The notes under the pieces: generated by a model
Databases searched by the model: none
What the model saw: only the letters and a program-made list of their open reading frames with translations
Told to the model about the DNA's origin: nothing
Source: a virus
DNA length: 34,155 nucleotides
Reading direction: 5' to 3' (one strand)
Virus record (IMG/VR): IMGVR_UViG_3300024048_000002
Coordinates: 1 to 34,155 of that record
Program-made: the position numbers and the translations under genes
In this document: piece by piece, positions 91-34,155 of the stretch
Position numbering within the stretch: position 1 is the first letter of the stretch
Layout: each line of letters begins with the position of its first letter

Positions 91-505
91 TATAAAGATA
101 GAAGATGAAGATAAAGATATATTAAAACCATTGTCGAGCAAACTCGACGGAACAGTAAAAGATCTTTTCTCTTTCTGGCAAAAGACTCTCAAACATCCCA
201 AAGCAATCCTAAGTGCAGATCGCTTGAAAAAGATAAAAGCGCGGTTGAAGGAGGGATATCCGCCTGAGAGGATAAAATCCGCTATTCTCGGTATTGCCAA
301 TAGCCCGCACAATATGGGGATTAACGAACACGGCAAGAAATACGACGATATTGAACTTATCTGCCGCACAGGGTCAAACGTGGATAGGTTTGCAGATATG
401 GAGACAACCGAAGCTGTTGACGATTGGTGGCAGACTGACGAGGGCGGTAAGCCAATCTTCGGGATAGACGGCCAACTAATGCCTAGAGAGGATGACAGAC
501 CATGA
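1..505 (+). CDS. Replication initiator, C-terminal part (continues from 33625-34155 across the circle junction)
   Basis: This is the 3' part of a 305-aa gene that starts at 33625. The frame read from base 2 is open and matches the frame leaving the right end, so no independent start is needed; the TTG at 131 is not a real start. The first 118 bases duplicate 34038-34155. Residues after the linker contain HPKAILSADRLKKIKARLKEGY and then SPHNMGINE and YDDIELICR, the pattern of the C-terminal domain of phage replication proteins that recruit a helicase loader. The stop overlaps the ATG of the next gene (502), as lambda O and P abut. Role by family: binds the origin and recruits the loader and host helicase. 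Identification of the family is from memory of conserved motifs, not a search. Confidence 0.75.
   Translation, partial: VINSKQPVINSKQPVINSKQPVINSKQSKPIKIEDEDKDILKPLSSKLDGTVKDLFSFWQKTLKHPKAILSADRLKKIKARLKEGYPPERIKSAILGIANSPHNMGINEHGKKYDDIELICRTGSNVDRFADMETTEAVDDWWQTDEGGKPIFGIDGQLMPREDDRP
91..130 (+). other. AT-rich, purine-rich tract next to the iterons; candidate DNA unwinding element
   Basis: The 40 bases after the last iteron octamer are about 75-80% A+T and strongly purine-biased on this strand (GATAGAAGATGAAGATAAAG). Iteron origins such as lambda ori carry an AT-rich easily melted segment at one flank of the iterons. That this tract unwinds is an inference from position and composition. 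It also encodes an acidic linker (IEDEDKD) in the initiator. Confidence 0.45.
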
Positions 506-1170
506 TAAATTTTGGATATTTCAAAGAAGGTCTAGCGAAGGTAGCGGCAGCTTTCAATGTAAGCAACCAGCGAAAAGAGGCTTTAGAAAATACTTACCAC
601 GACATATTAAGTTCTAAGATAAGTGATGCCCAATTCACTAAAGCGGTAGAACACATATTACTAAATGCAGAACGATTCCCTACCATAAAAGCGTTCTTAG
701 ATGTGGCTAGGATATATCCAGACCCAAAGGGCAACATTACGAAAGAACCTTGCGTGGTTTGCGATAGCACAGGTTGTATCGTTGCTAGGAGAGAAGGCTA
801 TAGAACGCTATTCTCTTGCAGCGAGTGTCATAACTGCGAATATGATTATCCAGAATGGAGCGACGATTACAGAAAAATAGGATTTAAGCCAGAATTCAGG
901 GCAAGCGACTGGAATCCCAATGATGATGCCCAAATGCGGGGGCTGGCTATGATGGGAACAGGGAGCAAGGTGTGGAAAAAAGCGTCAAAAGATTGCCAGC
1001 AAGCAGCAATGAAGTTCGGAGCAAAACCTCATTCGGCTGGCTTAGAGGCAATCACAGGCAAGGCAGACCCACAAAAAGAAAGGCTCAGGAGACAGCGAGA
1101 GCGTCAAATTGAGACATTTGACATCTTAGGCAAGGTCAGAAACCTACACATAGAAGGGGAGGCAACATGA
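502..1170 (+). CDS. Helicase loader-like replication protein with zinc-binding cluster
   Basis: The 222-aa product starts with an ATG overlapping the initiator stop (ATGA), a sign of translational coupling. Residues 1-75 are helical with KAVEHILLNAERFPTIKAF, reminiscent of the N-terminal domain of phage helicase loader/inhibitor proteins (G39P/DnaI-like). Residues 84-112 hold six cysteines (C84, C87, C92, C106, C109, C112) that look like a zinc site. The C-terminal 40 residues are basic and Arg/Gln-rich. By position it corresponds to lambda P, loading the host replicative helicase. No P-loop is visible, so it is not an ATPase of the DnaC type. Function is inferred from context plus the N-terminal resemblance. 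Confidence 0.6.
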   Translation: MINFGYFKEGLAKVAAAFNVSNQRKEALENTYHDILSSKISDAQFTKAVEHILLNAERFPTIKAFLDVARIYPDPKGNITKEPCVVCDSTGCIVARREGYRTLFSCSECHNCEYDYPEWSDDYRKIGFKPEFRASDWNPNDDAQMRGLAMMGTGSKVWKKASKDCQQAAMKFGAKPHSAGLEAITGKADPQKERLRRQRERQIETFDILGKVRNLHIEGEAT

Positions 1171-4432: not shown

Positions 4433-6319
4433 ATGTGGAAAGCCCGCATATCGTTGGCTAAAGATGCCCGTGAGGAAGTATTAAAAGACGGGGACAAAGC
4501 CGTTGAGAACTACGAAGGCAAGATAGACGCAGCCACGGGCTGTAAGGACACATCGACGCTTAATCTCGTTTATGTGGATATGAAGCAATCTATCCCTGAG
4601 TATTATTCGCAGAACCCCAAGCTATTTGTAGACCCTGACGAGCCAGGAGCCGAGGAAGATGCGGAACGTGCTGAACTCGCTCTGAACATTCTATGGCCTA
4701 AACGCCAGATGAAGCCTCTAATGCGTGACGCGATTAAAAGCACCAAGTTCTACGGTGTTTGCGGGTTCAAGACTTATTTCAACTTCAAAAAAGGTGCTGT
4801 TAAAGACGAATGGAACGACCGTATAGAGAATGATGACGTTAGAACTGATCGAGTGCCGCGCAAGTTCTTGCTGAAAGACCCCAGCGCAACATGTTGGGAT
4901 ACTTCCTGCTGGATTGGTCACGAGATTATAGCTAAAGTCTCTGACATAGCCGAGCGATTCAACATCAAAGACAATAAAGATATCACGGTTACGAAGTCCG
5001 ACACAGGTTCGTCAGATTTGGACGGCTATGAGGACATTGAAGCTATTAAGGGTGATTTCCAATACGGTACTTATTACGAGATTGAAGATCGTAAGAAGGG
5101 TGAAGTATTTACGATTGTTGACGGTCTGGACAAATTCGCTAAGAAGCCAACGAAGAAATCTTACAAGTACGACTCGATGTGGGATTTCCTAGAGTACAAC
5201 GATATTCCCGACAGACCTAACACGAAGGGTGATTACTTCTTCTGGAGAGCGCAGCTAGAGGAAGTGGCTATCTTTCGCACCATGCTTATTAATCACGCCA
5301 AGAAGGGCAACGCTAAGTACGCTTGCTATGGCGATCTGTCTCCAGCGCAAAAGCTCCAGCTAAAATCAAACGAGGACTCCACTTGCGTTGATTTATCACC
5401 GACGCAGAAGGTTGACCCGATTGTTCACTCTGGCATTGACCAGCAAGTATTTATGGCTGACCAATCCGTGAGGGCAGATATTCAAGTTCTGTCTAAAGGC
5501 CCACGTCAGTCAGCGGGTAAAAAGACAGCCACCGAAGTCAACGCAACTGAAGCAGCAGCGCAACAGGTATCTGGTGAGAACCTTGAAAGACTAGAGGAAG
5601 TCATTGCATCCATCGCTAATAAATGGGTTAGCCTCATGCAAGATAACTACTCCAATACACGCACCGTAGCTCTTACGGGTATGCCTGACTATAAGTTCCA
5701 AGACTACCAAGACAGGTTGGGCGAGTCGATGGACGGTAGTTCAAAGCATCCTTTCCTTAAATTCACTAAGGGCGATATCGGCAAGAAGCTGAACGTCAGA
5801 ATTAAAGCCGGATCCACAACTCCTGACTCCGATCAAACCCGCATGGCTAAGTTTCAAGGGTTCATGAAGTTCGTATCCACAGGGAAGTTAATGGCTGGTG
5901 TTGATTTAGAGGAAGTGTTGAAGGAAGCCGTCGAAGTCTTTGATGTTCGCAACGATAACCTGACGATGGGCAAAGACAATCCGATGGAAGAATCCAGATT
6001 GTTAAACGCTGGTGCTTACATTGCTCCAAAGATAAACGAGCAGCACGACAAACATTTACAAATACATGAGATGGAATCCAACGGCAATAACGAGAACATT
6101 CTACATATTCTCGGCCACAAGATGTTTAAGGCTCAGATGGACGCAAACCAAATGGCAGAATCGGCAACAACTCCGCCGAAGATGCCCCAAACAGGTCAAT
6201 CCTTTGTAGGAGCAGACCAGCAACAACCTGTGGCGTTACCACCACAGGGTCAGCCAGTACAACAAGGCCCAAGTGGGCCACCACAAACCGCGCCAATAGG
6301 CGCAGGAGGCATTAGATGA
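4433..6319 (+). CDS. Portal protein
   Basis: The 628-aa product lies between terL and the scaffold gene, and has the length and sequence style of podovirus portals: an N-terminal helical part, the segment IPEYYSQNPKLFVDPDEPG near residues 53-71, a helical stem region rich in KKTATEVNATEAAAQQV near residue 363, and a Gln/Pro-rich tail over the last 40 residues. It forms the dodecameric ring at the capsid vertex that docks TerL and the tail. ATG 4433 is the only normal start in the frame after a TGA near 4347, yet no strong ribosome binding site precedes it. Its stop overlaps the next ATG. Confidence 0.82.
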   Translation: MWKARISLAKDAREEVLKDGDKAVENYEGKIDAATGCKDTSTLNLVYVDMKQSIPEYYSQNPKLFVDPDEPGAEEDAERAELALNILWPKRQMKPLMRDAIKSTKFYGVCGFKTYFNFKKGAVKDEWNDRIENDDVRTDRVPRKFLLKDPSATCWDTSCWIGHEIIAKVSDIAERFNIKDNKDITVTKSDTGSSDLDGYEDIEAIKGDFQYGTYYEIEDRKKGEVFTIVDGLDKFAKKPTKKSYKYDSMWDFLEYNDIPDRPNTKGDYFFWRAQLEEVAIFRTMLINHAKKGNAKYACYGDLSPAQKLQLKSNEDSTCVDLSPTQKVDPIVHSGIDQQVFMADQSVRADIQVLSKGPRQSAGKKTATEVNATEAAAQQVSGENLERLEEVIASIANKWVSLMQDNYSNTRTVALTGMPDYKFQDYQDRLGESMDGSSKHPFLKFTKGDIGKKLNVRIKAGSTTPDSDQTRMAKFQGFMKFVSTGKLMAGVDLEEVLKEAVEVFDVRNDNLTMGKDNPMEESRLLNAGAYIAPKINEQHDKHLQIHEMESNGNNENILHILGHKMFKAQMDANQMAESATTPPKMPQTGQSFVGADQQQPVALPPQGQPVQQGPSGPPQTAPIGAGGIR

Positions 6320-29864: not shown

Positions 29865-30145
29865 TTTAAACCCCTTTCCTCGTTGTATTCATCCCAAAGT
29901 TTATTTGCTTCCCTGTAAAAGATAGGCAATAGACTGCGTTCATCATTTGGGTTCTTGTGCATCTTCTGATGGCAATTTAGGCAAAGACATATTTGCAAAT
30001 CATCCCTGCTCCTACGTTGACCCCCTTCTGGATTAGGCAAGTGATGACCTGTCGTGTGAACCCTTCCGCACATCATGCACCGCTTGCCACGAATCCAGAT
30101 GCGATATTTCAAGTCCTTCACCTTTTTTGGCTTTAATATCATCAT
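29861..30145 (-). CDS. HNH-like nuclease or zinc protein
   Basis: The 94-aa product has [17 protein letters not shown] (C23, C26, H34, H35), then [17 protein letters not shown] with C58-H59 and H63, the order of residues in HNH nucleases (CxxC, HH, N, CxxCH, H). Such small HNH proteins are common in phage recombination blocks. It overlaps the upstream gene by ATGA. Activity is not certain. Confidence 0.7.
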
Positions 30146-30663
30146 TGGTCTAATTTCTCCTTAATACGCGGGAGCCGTCTATTGTTTGCCTGCTCTTTTT
30201 TCGTAGCCCATCGGCAATTGTTTTTCGAATAATCTCCGTTGTTGTCAATGCGGTCAATCGTCAACCCGTCAGGCTTATCGCCCATATCTCGATAAAACGA
30301 CTCAAAGCTATTTTCCCACTCTTTGCAAATTTTTATACCCCGCCCGCCATAATATTTGTAGGAGTCGCTTTTAGGATTAGCCGTTCTAGCTTTCATCCCC
30401 TCCCATGTGTGATATTCTGTTGATTGTGTTTTTCTATGCGTGGCGTTCTGTTTGCCAACGCTTTGCATGAAATCCTTTTTGTAGCACCCACAGCTTTTAG
30501 TATTCCCACTCTGTAAGTTGCCCCCTCTTGCTATAAATTCACAACCGCAATCGCATAGACATCGCCAATGCCTATAATAATATGGAGCACCATCCCCCCT
30601 ATGAAACTGGAGAACGACTACCTTACCATACCTTTCGCCAACACGGTTTTTTAGCTTTGTCAT
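30142..30663 (-). CDS. Free-standing HNH/AP2-type homing endonuclease-like protein
   Basis: From ATG 30663 (GGGAGACAAA upstream) the 173-aa product starts [20 protein letters not shown], and has a zinc-like part CLCDCGCEF and SCGCYK, then [28 protein letters not shown], and [20 protein letters not shown] followed by KEQANNRR. This matches AP2-domain HNH endonucleases found as mobile genes in phages. An upstream in-frame start at 30705 would overlap the neighbour by 25 bases and lacks a good ribosome binding site. It may be a homing insertion, though nothing here is interrupted. Confidence 0.8.
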
Positions 30664-30680
30664 TTTGTCTCCCATAAAGA

Positions 30681-31028
30681 TCAGTCCAATTTTTCGCGTA
30701 CCCACCCAATCATCATCTCCATCTTTTCACGATAGAACACCTCAAAGTCTCCTTCACCGCCCAACTGCTGCCAATAGCAAAATATCACGGCTCTCATCCT
30801 CTGCGATGGTGTCTTAGATTGCTTGAACTCAGGCGGCGGGGCATCAGGCACAAAGGTTTCAGTTGTTTCCTCTGACGCAAATATCAACCACCCGAAAGTC
30901 TGATTGAGCCTGATACACTCTGCTGCGGTATCTGCTGGCATCTCTTGACAATGAAACGTCACCTTTAAGGTTTTGTCCTTCAACGTGCTGATGCTGCTCA
31001 TCGTTGCTGGAACTGTGTATTTATTCAT
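30681..31028 (-). CDS. Phage protein of the recombination block, unknown function
   Basis: The 115-aa product overlaps the stop of the upstream gene (GAATGA) and has GGTGGAG upstream. It begins with a beta-rich part ([19 protein letters not shown]), then GWLIFASEE and a C-terminal helical part ([20 protein letters not shown]). Similar proteins sit beside annealing recombinases in other phages, from memory. No known activity. Confidence 0.65.
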
Positions 31029-31471
31029 TCTCCACCTTCGATCTGCACATAGGGTTTAGCTGGTGTAACTTCTTTGGCCTTGTCAAACTTGGCAAGTAGT
31101 TCTTCCCCTGCTCCCGCTGTGCCTGATAGCTTCTTCATCTCCCTAGCGTTTGGCTTGTACTCTCCGACTCTAAAATACTTCATAAAAGACCCGTCGCCAA
31201 CTTCCTCACGAATATCGTTCAACTGCTTCACATCCCATTTAACGTATTCCTTGAACGTAATCTTTACCGTGAAATTACTTCCCGCAACACGCTTGACCTT
31301 TGTATCGCTTTCAACTGTTGCCGCAAGTGCTGCTAATTCACATTCAAGGCTGTACCTAATCTCTCGTAGCTCGCCCTCGTGAGTCTTAACGGCTTTTAAC
31401 TGCGCGATAATCTCATCTATCTTGTCGCCGCTGTATTCTATGATCTCTCCGTTTTCGTCGATGTATTCCAT
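31025..31471 (-). CDS. Recombinase-associated protein of unknown function
   Basis: The 148-aa product overlaps the ERF stop (TAATGG) with GGAGGTG upstream. N-terminal part is helical and acidic (EIIAQLKAVKTHEGELREIR), then NFTVKITFKEYVKWDVKQL and YKPNAREMKKLSG. It sits directly after the ERF gene and may be its partner. No enzyme motif seen. Confidence 0.65.
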   Translation of the reverse strand: MEYIDENGEIIEYSGDKIDEIIAQLKAVKTHEGELREIRYSLECELAALAATVESDTKVKRVAGSNFTVKITFKEYVKWDVKQLNDIREEVGDGSFMKYFRVGEYKPNAREMKKLSGTAGAGEELLAKFDKAKEVTPAKPYVQIEGGE

Positions 31472-32181
31472 TAGAACACCTCCTTGAAGTCTTTTTCAAA
31501 GTCTGCTTGGGGTGGAGGCTGATCGTCAAACTGCTGGAAAGTCTCAACCAGATCGTCTGTATAAGCGTGTGACCATGTGCCAGTTTTCTCGTTCAGCTTA
31601 AATCCTGCGTCGGTTAAGAACTTGTCGGTAAACTTGCCACCTTCATTCTTTGTCAAGATATAGGCTTTACCCTTCCACTCGCTACACCACCAGCCGTTAC
31701 CCTTAGCCATGTCAAGCGGCGGGGCTTTGTTTACGGGCTTGGCTGCTTTAGCTGCTGGCTTGGCGTTGGCTTCTATGTCGTGGTTCTCTATATCGTCACC
31801 AGTTGAAACCATAAAGGTTTTTAGAATAAAATATTTGTAAGCTGAGGTCAGAGCCTTTGGTGCGCCTTTGTCTTGTGTGTCTGCACCCTGTCCAACACCA
31901 GTAGCAACAATCATTTCCTCGGTTTCGCAATCGCAGATGGAAAATTCTACATTGACTGTGGTTAGGCTGTCTACCCTGCAAGAATGAGTTACGGAAGGAA
32001 TTATAATGACTTTGTTTTTAATGCAGAGTTCTCGCAGAGCAGTCAATGCGTCCTGCTCTTGGACAAACTTATACTTGAAATGCTTATTATAGCCATTCTT
32101 AGGGACGTTCCCCATTTCGCCAATGATTTTAATCAGCTTCATTCTCAGGCCATTTGATTTAGTGTTTGTTTCCTTTGGCAT
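31471..32181 (-). CDS. erf: ERF-family single-strand annealing protein
   Basis: From ATG 32181 (GGAG seven bases upstream; a TTG at 32187 is too close), the 236-aa product contains the ERF core: GYNKHFKYKFVQEQDALTAL, then VEFSICDCETEEMIVATGVG, QGADTQDKGAPKALTSAYKY and FMVSTGDDIEN. The C-terminal half is a Lys/Ala-Pro linker (KPAAKAAKPVNKAPP) and a distinct small domain ending QADFEKDFKEVF, a terminus like those that bind host SSB. It would pair single strands during phage recombination. Confidence 0.9.
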   Translation of the reverse strand: MPKETNTKSNGLRMKLIKIIGEMGNVPKNGYNKHFKYKFVQEQDALTALRELCIKNKVIIIPSVTHSCRVDSLTTVNVEFSICDCETEEMIVATGVGQGADTQDKGAPKALTSAYKYFILKTFMVSTGDDIENHDIEANAKPAAKAAKPVNKAPPLDMAKGNGWWCSEWKGKAYILTKNEGGKFTDKFLTDAGFKLNEKTGTWSHAYTDDLVETFQQFDDQPPPQADFEKDFKEVF

Positions 32182-32359
32182 CGTCAATCTCCTTTATTTG
32201 ATTATACAAGTCGTTGCGTTCTAAAGCTAGTCTATCAAGTCTTTGTTCTGCCGCTGCTTGAATCCAACCATTTAACGAACTGTGGTCATGTCCAGCGGCT
32301 TCTTTCACTTCCTTGTGTAGCTCTGGGTCAATCCTAAGCATGACATTTACTTTCTTCAT
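32159..32359 (-). CDS. Ribbon-helix-helix DNA-binding protein
   Basis: The 66-aa product starts KKVNVMLRIDPELHKEVKEA, the beta-strand and first helix of ribbon-helix-helix proteins (Arc/HicB-like), then HSSLNGWIQAAAEQRL, the second helix, and a short helical tail. AAGGAG is upstream. It overlaps the ERF gene by 23 bases. Probably an early regulator. Confidence 0.8.
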   Translation of the reverse strand: MKKVNVMLRIDPELHKEVKEAAGHDHSSLNGWIQAAAEQRLDRLALERNDLYNQIKEIDDAKGNKH

Positions 32360-33000: not shown

Positions 33001-33222
33001 TTATTCGCCCCGCTCTTGTTGACGGTCGCTCTCTAATGATTCCATCTCCCATTCTTTCTCAACTGCTTTGCGATGTTCGGGGCAAAGATACTCACCGACA
33101 TCTGCAAACCATACGACTTCATCGTCATGGCCTCGGTCGCAATATTCGCAACTGTGATGATGATAGTCTCCGTTTGGATTGTCAGGCGTGATTGATACAT
33201 CGTAATTAGGTAGGTGTTCCAT
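33001..33222 (-). CDS. Small zinc-binding protein, first gene of the leftward operon
   Basis: The 73-aa product starts MEHLPNYDVSITPDNPNGDY and has HHHSCEYCDRGHDDE with CPEHRKAVEK further on, a Cys/His arrangement fit for zinc. AAAGGAGACAC precedes the ATG. It is closest to the divergent control region, so it is likely transcribed first. Function unknown. Confidence 0.65.
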   Translation of the reverse strand: MEHLPNYDVSITPDNPNGDYHHHSCEYCDRGHDDEVVWFADVGEYLCPEHRKAVEKEWEMESLESDRQQERGE

Positions 33223-33449: not shown

Positions 33450-33644
33450 ATGAACGCAAGAGACTTGGAACAGAAGCTAGAAAAACGCAGGGAGTACATG
33501 CGCATAAGGCTTAAAAAACACTATAAGATAGCTAGGGAGATTGGCTTTTGCTCTCAAGAGGCGGCTATTCTGAGCCACCAGACGTTGAAAGTTATACATA
33601 GGATTGCGCTAGAAAGGGGGCTAAATGTACGGGAAACACTTTGA
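33450..33644 (+). CDS. Small basic protein, first gene of the rightward early operon
   Basis: The 64-aa product has GAAAGGGGC upstream of ATG 33450. It is helical and Arg/Lys-rich (KLEKRREYMRIRLKKHYKIA) and overlaps the initiator gene by 20 bases. A DNA-binding or regulatory role fits its place, but no family is recognised. Confidence 0.65.
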   Translation: MNARDLEQKLEKRREYMRIRLKKHYKIAREIGFCSQEAAILSHQTLKVIHRIALERGLNVRETL

Positions 33645-34155
33645 GTCAATGTATACGGGGTCTATGTTCGGGGCTGGGATGAATGTATTTGCTGTTTGGG
33701 GCTTTGCGATAGCAAATAAGGGTTCTGATGGTGTAGTTGAGATCAACCCCCCCTTTGTAGCTTCCGCGCTGGGCTGTGGAGTGGAGGATGTCACATCGGC
33801 AATCGAGTTCCTTTGTTCACCGGATGAAAATTCAAGAAGCGAGGACAAGGATGGCCGTAGGTTGTTAAAGGTCGGTTCTTTTACCTATGAGGTGGTTAAT
33901 CATGCGAAATATGTTGGTATGAAAAACGCAGAAGATAGACGCAGACAAGGAAGGGAATCGCAGGCCAGATTCAGAGAAAAGCACGGGGGAACCGTAGTAA
34001 GCAGTAGTAAGCAAATAGTAATCAATAGTAAGCAGCCAGTAATCAATAGTAAGCAGCCAGTAATCAATAGTAAGCAGCCAGTAATCAATAGTAAGCAGCC
34101 AGTAATCAATAGTAAGCAGAGTAAGCCTATAAAGATAGAAGATGAAGATAAAGAT
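33625..34155 (+). CDS. Replication initiator, N-terminal part with iteron-encoded linker (continues at 1-505)
   Basis: The gene starts at ATG 33625 with AAGGGGG upstream and runs off the right end in frame with 1-505, giving a 305-aa protein (177 codons here). Residues 1-95 (MYGKHFESMYTGSMFGAGMN, then VFAVWGFAIANK and GCGVEDVTSAIEFLCSPDEN) match the winged-helix-like N-terminal domain of a widespread phage replication protein. Residues 96-120 are Arg-rich. Residues 124-165 are repeats of VINSKQP, encoded by the iterons. By analogy with lambda O, the N-terminal domain would bind the repeats inside its own gene. Confidence 0.78.
   Translation, partial: MYGKHFESMYTGSMFGAGMNVFAVWGFAIANKGSDGVVEINPPFVASALGCGVEDVTSAIEFLCSPDENSRSEDKDGRRLLKVGSFTYEVVNHAKYVGMKNAEDRRRQGRESQARFREKHGGTVVSSSKQIVINSKQPVINSKQPVINSKQPVINSKQPVINSKQSKPIKIEDEDKD
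33996..34127 (+). repeat. Iteron-like array inside the initiator gene: candidate replication origin
   Basis: Twelve perfect AGTAAKCA octamers (starts 33996, 34006, 34017, 34027, 34038, 34048, 34059, 34069, 34080, 34090, 34101, 34111) and one degenerate AGTAAGCC (34120). From the third octamer on, AGTAATCA and AGTAAGCA alternate with spacings of 10 and 11 bp, forming 21-bp units. The mean of 10.5 bp places every octamer on the same face of the helix. The units are 7 codons long, so the reading frame is kept. Copy number in the real genome may differ because assemblers handle tandem repeats badly. Confidence 0.85.
34038..34155 (+). repeat. 118-bp terminal redundancy (identical to 1-118)
   Basis: The last 118 bases equal the first 118 exactly. 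Since the join makes one continuous open frame, the sequence represents a circle or a circularly permuted molecule of about 34,037 bp. The overlap most likely comes from assembly and not from natural phage ends, as it falls in a coding repeat. Confidence 0.95.

Follow-up and report, generated by a model that had tools for sequence, protein, structure and literature searches.

The closest described systems are the replication origins of lambdoid phages and of iteron plasmids. In lambda, repeats within gene O lie beside a 40-bp A+T-rich region, while the iterons of plasmids are about 17–22 bp long and, as a rule, are found outside the rep gene. Iterons annotated in the lambda record span 39034–39118 within O and are 20–24 bp apart from start to start. 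They are inverted repeats of 18–19 bp bound by dimers (PMC5043065), and lambdoid origins have four or six iterons, the number differing between relatives (PMC7466680). Plasmid iterons are direct repeats in helix phase, and an origin can lose its activity when this phasing is disturbed (PMC5043065; PMC4980987); cooperative binding of Rep is abolished by half-turn shifts (PMC4980987).

The window analysed here, a stretch of 34,155 nucleotides from a virus (IMG/VR record IMGVR_UViG_3300024048_000002), carries an array that joins the location seen in lambda with direct, phased sites like those of plasmids, at one site per turn. As at the lambda origin, the repeats lie within an initiator gene, between its N- and C-terminal domains and beside an AT-rich tract, but they are 8-bp direct sites at every 10–11 bp, and not iterons of 18–19 bp with a dyad. 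With the plasmid origins of RK2, P1, F and R6K the array shares direct, helix-phased repeats and an initiator of the winged-helix type, which in the window is a prediction; it differs from them in that its sites lie within the gene and number one per turn, and no sequence relation was found in plasmid records. From the sequence comparisons described below, it is considered highly probable that the array is the virus's own replication origin, situated in the linker-coding part of the initiator gene.

The initiator gene and its octamer array

The first 118 bases of the window are identical to the last 118, and it can therefore be read as a 34,037-bp circle. The initiator gene (plus strand) begins at 33625, runs to the contig end at 34155 and continues over the circle junction at 119–505, specifying a protein of 304 aa. 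In PHROG the protein matches a profile named 'replication initiation protein' with E 1.7e-21 and one named 'replication initiation O-like' with E 5.5e-12, while the full-length sequence had no match in Pfam or NCBIfam, and neither domain gave a meaningful match when its profile was searched against the sequences in PDB. Residues 1–123 (33625..33993, plus strand) form a putative DNA-binding domain that AlphaFold2 predicts to be a winged helix (pLDDT 85.7, pTM 0.72). Its fold matches are CRP-like winged helices, with Z up to 8.7, only slightly above the usual background, and include the winged-helix domain of RepA (1hkq, Z 7.2). The C-terminal domain (122..397, plus strand), which is common to initiators with other N-terminal domains, is modelled as helical with lower confidence than the N-terminal domain, and its structural match to lambda P (9oa1; Z 6.0, 4.1 Å, 84 residues) was set aside as too weak for a helical domain. 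Alignment by hhalign to a single lambda O sequence gave probabilities of 0.3% (N-terminal) and 0.15% (C-terminal). The description 'lambda O-like', used in an earlier note on this DNA, holds for the architecture, but no homology was detected, neither domain aligning with lambda O; the array is accordingly filed as working like a lambda-type origin and is not placed in the O family.

The array extends over 33996..34118 (plus strand) and consists of twelve AGTAAKCA octamers, which are putative iterons, starting at 33996, 34006, 34017, 34027, 34038, 34048, 34059, 34069, 34080, 34090, 34101 and 34111. As the earlier note had it, spacings of 10 and 11 bp alternate and the repeat is in frame within the linker, the 21-bp unit encoding VINSKQP (TRF: 5.9 copies, 95% matches). 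Two details required amendment: the first two octamers are both AGTAAGCA, so that strict alternation of T and G holds only from 34017 on, and the array ends at 34118 and not at 34127, since the remaining bases (34120..34127, plus strand) are a degenerate thirteenth octamer, AGTAAGCC, placed 9 bp on and forming the junction to the tract. No inverted repeats were found in the array region, and elsewhere on the circle AGTAAKCA occurs only four times on both strands together, at 1451 and 25539 (plus) and at 5230 and 11976 (minus). The right part of the array appears a second time at 1–81 through the contig overlap.

Next to the array lies an AT-rich, purine-rich tract (91..134, plus strand) of GAAGAT/AAAGAT hexamers, a putative duplex-unwinding element, of which 28 bases are duplicated at the contig end (34128–34155). 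The tract had been noted at 91–130 as following the array, and it does so as a continuation across the circle junction; its best 40-mer has 80% A+T, within the top 0.04% of the circle. The next gene (502..1170, plus strand; 222 aa) occupies the position of a helicase loader, an assignment by position only, for which no PHROG or Pfam match and no pairwise support was found. Upstream of the initiator, on the minus strand, is a leftward gene for an Erf-type single-strand annealing protein (31471–32187), an arrangement also seen in Vibrio phage D478, and the leftward gene block includes an HNH endonuclease ORF (30142–30705, minus strand; PHROG 2.7e-61). A GC-skew minimum had been expected at the array, and that of the circle is indeed near, at 33152; it carries no weight as evidence of an origin since it follows the gene strands.

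Copy number varies between close contigs. Over 6.9 kb, L008 and the window differ by no mismatches and by a single gap of 21 bp (10 versus 12 octamers), and L009 and L010, with flanks more diverged from the window than those of L008, have six octamers. The changes are by whole 21-bp units, each equal to two octamers, two helical turns and seven codons, so that helical phase and reading frame are both kept. A simple collapse of the repeat during assembly is unlikely because the longest exact internal self-match (82 bp) is shorter than the 118-bp end overlap. The first base of contig L011 is the T that precedes the last four units of the 10-octamer version, and the window's first base is the array base directly after the one that opens L011. 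Both contigs may thus begin where the versions with 10 and 12 copies branch apart, and the 118-bp overlap may reflect an assembly word of about 119; in that case both versions would have been present in the source samples.

Phased sites among relatives of the N-terminal domain

Relatives by the N-terminal domain comprise 39 dereplicated loci, the window included, from viral contigs and two MAGs, and they share 40–57% identity with the window. A search of genome contigs yielded only two such relatives, both in the MAGs, and tblastn with the domain gave no match in 50,697 phage and 72,556 plasmid records. Across the 39 loci, distances between GTMA pairs in the linker zone peak at 9–12, 19–23, 29–32 and 42 bp relative to dinucleotide shuffles. 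With the window excluded, 71 adjacent pairs of GTMA cores lie 9–12 bp apart in 30 genes, as against a mean of 8.0 and a maximum of 19 in synonymous-codon shuffles (n=1000); the mean spacing is 10.25 bp, and the pairs cluster between positions +300 and +500 of the gene. These spacings leave remainders of 1, 0 and 2 modulo 3 in 35, 30 and 6 cases, showing that the reading frame does not set the spacing of the sites. The motif was selected after the sequences had been read, so that shuffle z-scores are descriptive and more weight falls on the comparison with control loci, although this too relies on that motif: GTCA[AGT]C pairs at 9–12 bp number 27 in 15 of the 39 loci and one in 55 control loci, and GTAA[GTA]C pairs number five in four loci and one in 55 control loci.

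Since in the relatives single octamers recur at 9–12 bp without a fixed 21-bp pair, each is probably a full site, and the earlier suggestion that they are half-sites is not favoured. The junction between array and tract is conserved among the relatives, which have tracts of CAGAAG/GATAGA hexamers in a position equal to that of the tract in the window. Read by eye, the array terminates at many loci in GTCAGCCCATA, followed by the CAGAAG or GATAGA hexamers; the degenerate octamer is its counterpart in the window, where the corresponding sequence, also read by eye, is AGTAAGCCTATAAAGATAGAAGATGAAGAT. In L120 and L150 the next gene encodes a DnaB-like helicase.

The array is not universal. Homologues lacking linker repeats had been named as evidence that would count against an origin, and such relatives exist in part: about nine of the 39 have no phased array in the gene, most of them short one-domain proteins. 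Some of these carry sites upstream, and for several others a scan of the upstream region also found none. The plainest case is L142, a relative of 180 residues with no array inside its gene, upstream of which GTAAGCA, ATAATCC, GTAAGCA and GTAATCG follow one another at 10–11 bp in inverted orientation and are succeeded by AGAAGC repeats, with no ORF of at least 50 aa over these sites. Its strict count of GTMA pairs is not significant (p 0.10), and the case is made by the match of its sites to the octamers of the window. Upstream placement is less clear in L025 and L155, where GTAATCA with GTAAGCA or GTAATCC is likewise inverted (p 0.03 and 0.006) and ORFs overlap the sites. L128 and L130 have an initiator frame of just 123 residues, closed by a stop ahead of the site array and the tract; a sequencing frameshift may account for the early stop, and in L128 part of the sites and tract beyond it is covered by a second open frame. 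Protein and binding site, said in the earlier note to co-evolve in one stretch of DNA, need not share it, as the module of L142 is upstream, inverted and outside any ORF of 50 aa.

On the promoter side, either of the initiator or of the preceding gene, second clusters of sites of the GTCAAC type were also seen, at -400 to -200 in L120, L125, L127, L129 and L145, and at about -60 in L131, L138 and L153. A role in autoregulation is possible for these.

Linker repeats among relatives of the C-terminal domain

The C-terminal domain led to 55 dereplicated initiators with N-terminal domains that are mostly of other kinds. Linker repeats beyond those expected from synonymous shuffling are present in 35 of the 55, compared with none of 44 control genes, and the significant lags include 6, 7, 10, 11, 15 and 21 bp. 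The test is blunt and conservative, given that lambda O, a known case, reaches just p 0.065. PF09524 (Phg_2220_C) gave weak matches in 17 of 31 members (best 7.9e-4), with the sequence of the window below threshold, and the C-terminal domain of the window is homologous to those of Phg_2220_C-type phage initiators. In Marinomonas phage P12026 and Vibrio phages D478 and FGH, this domain is 39–53% identical to that of the window, and these initiators resemble it in having repeats in the linker and adjoining replication genes (in P12026, a gene for a P-like loader), but differ in their N-terminal domains and in the repeats themselves, the linker of D478 carrying a 10-bp AGCAAANNNT array.

Marine phage initiators (L016, L017, L014 and related) have 7-bp linker repeats, GGAACAG, TAACCAN and CCCAATA, of which three units make 21 bp. 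Many relatives, e.g., L102, L059 and L050, have 6-bp tracts of strong purine/pyrimidine bias directly ahead of the C-terminal domain, examples being (GATAAA)n, (CAGGAA)n and (TCTTCA)n.

Origin, operator or another site

The view of the earlier note, that this is a phage origin of the lambda type inside an initiator gene, has gained from comparison, through the profile matches, the phased sites across the family, the conserved junction and the DnaB- and P-like neighbours. That the module acts at the level of DNA is favoured by the excess of phased cores over synonymous shuffles, by spacing independent of codons with sites upstream of the gene in L142 and less clearly in L025 and L155, and by the different linker repeats of initiators that share only the C-terminal domain. 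The winged-helix N-terminal domain would bind each AGTAAKCA octamer, and as the octamers are 10–11 bp apart the bound initiators are proposed to share one face of the helix, where they could pack into a single ordered complex. Such a complex would strain and open the adjoining AT-rich purine tract, and the C-terminal domain would then help to bring the replicative helicase, probably via a loader.

An array of this type could instead be mainly an intragenic operator, by which the N-terminal domain represses or times its own operon, the origin lying elsewhere. The promoter-side clusters of the eight loci named above agree with such a role, as does the resemblance of the predicted fold to CRP, but the main array is 370–490 bp inside the gene and adjoins a conserved AT/purine tract in a layout typical of origins, and in the window no promoter-side operator sites upstream of the initiator gene scored above 5. 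This alternative is regarded as improbable. Less credible still is that the repeat is a feature of the protein, a flexible VINSKQP linker grown by slippage and without function as DNA. In its favour, the unit is seven codons long and near-identical genomes differ by whole units, but the relatives have kept the sites and not the peptide, the spacing is not tied to three, and the signal vanishes under synonymous shuffling; moreover, the sites of L142 are outside any 50-aa ORF and those of L128 and L130 are past the stop of the initiator frame. Recurrence of the same sites in distant relatives, once upstream of the gene, indicates that the octamers are most likely binding sites and not a quirk of the protein. 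It is just as hard to credit that the array is some other phage site, for packaging, recombination or partition, that lies in this gene by chance. Such sites are known inside phage genes, and tandem arrays are known at partition loci, but the terminase small-subunit gene (1765–2253) is 1.3 kb from the array, no partition gene is among the scanned ORFs of the window, and the motif tracks the N-terminal family of the initiator across contigs that are otherwise unlike.

Alongside the reading of the array as the origin of this virus, a broader proposal may be made, towards which we lean with less assurance. The initiators related through the N-terminal domain would be an undescribed winged-helix phage family, without a tblastn match in the phage and plasmid records searched, that recognises direct sites of a single turn (GTMANC, one per 10–11 bp). 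Together with the hexamer purine tract, these sites would make up a portable origin module, mostly placed in the linker and in other members upstream and inverted, with the number of sites set by whole units of two turns and seven codons. Searches of the open-access literature found neither this initiator family described nor any phage initiator gene with single-turn sites.

Linker repeats with a hexamer tract ahead of a conserved C-terminal domain may allow origins to be found by sequence in uncultured phages. The family also offers natural experiments on origins, with sites inside or outside the gene, GTAA or GTCA at equal helical spacing, and siblings that are one 21-bp unit apart, and it illustrates how a single stretch of DNA can meet the demands of binding phase and reading frame together.
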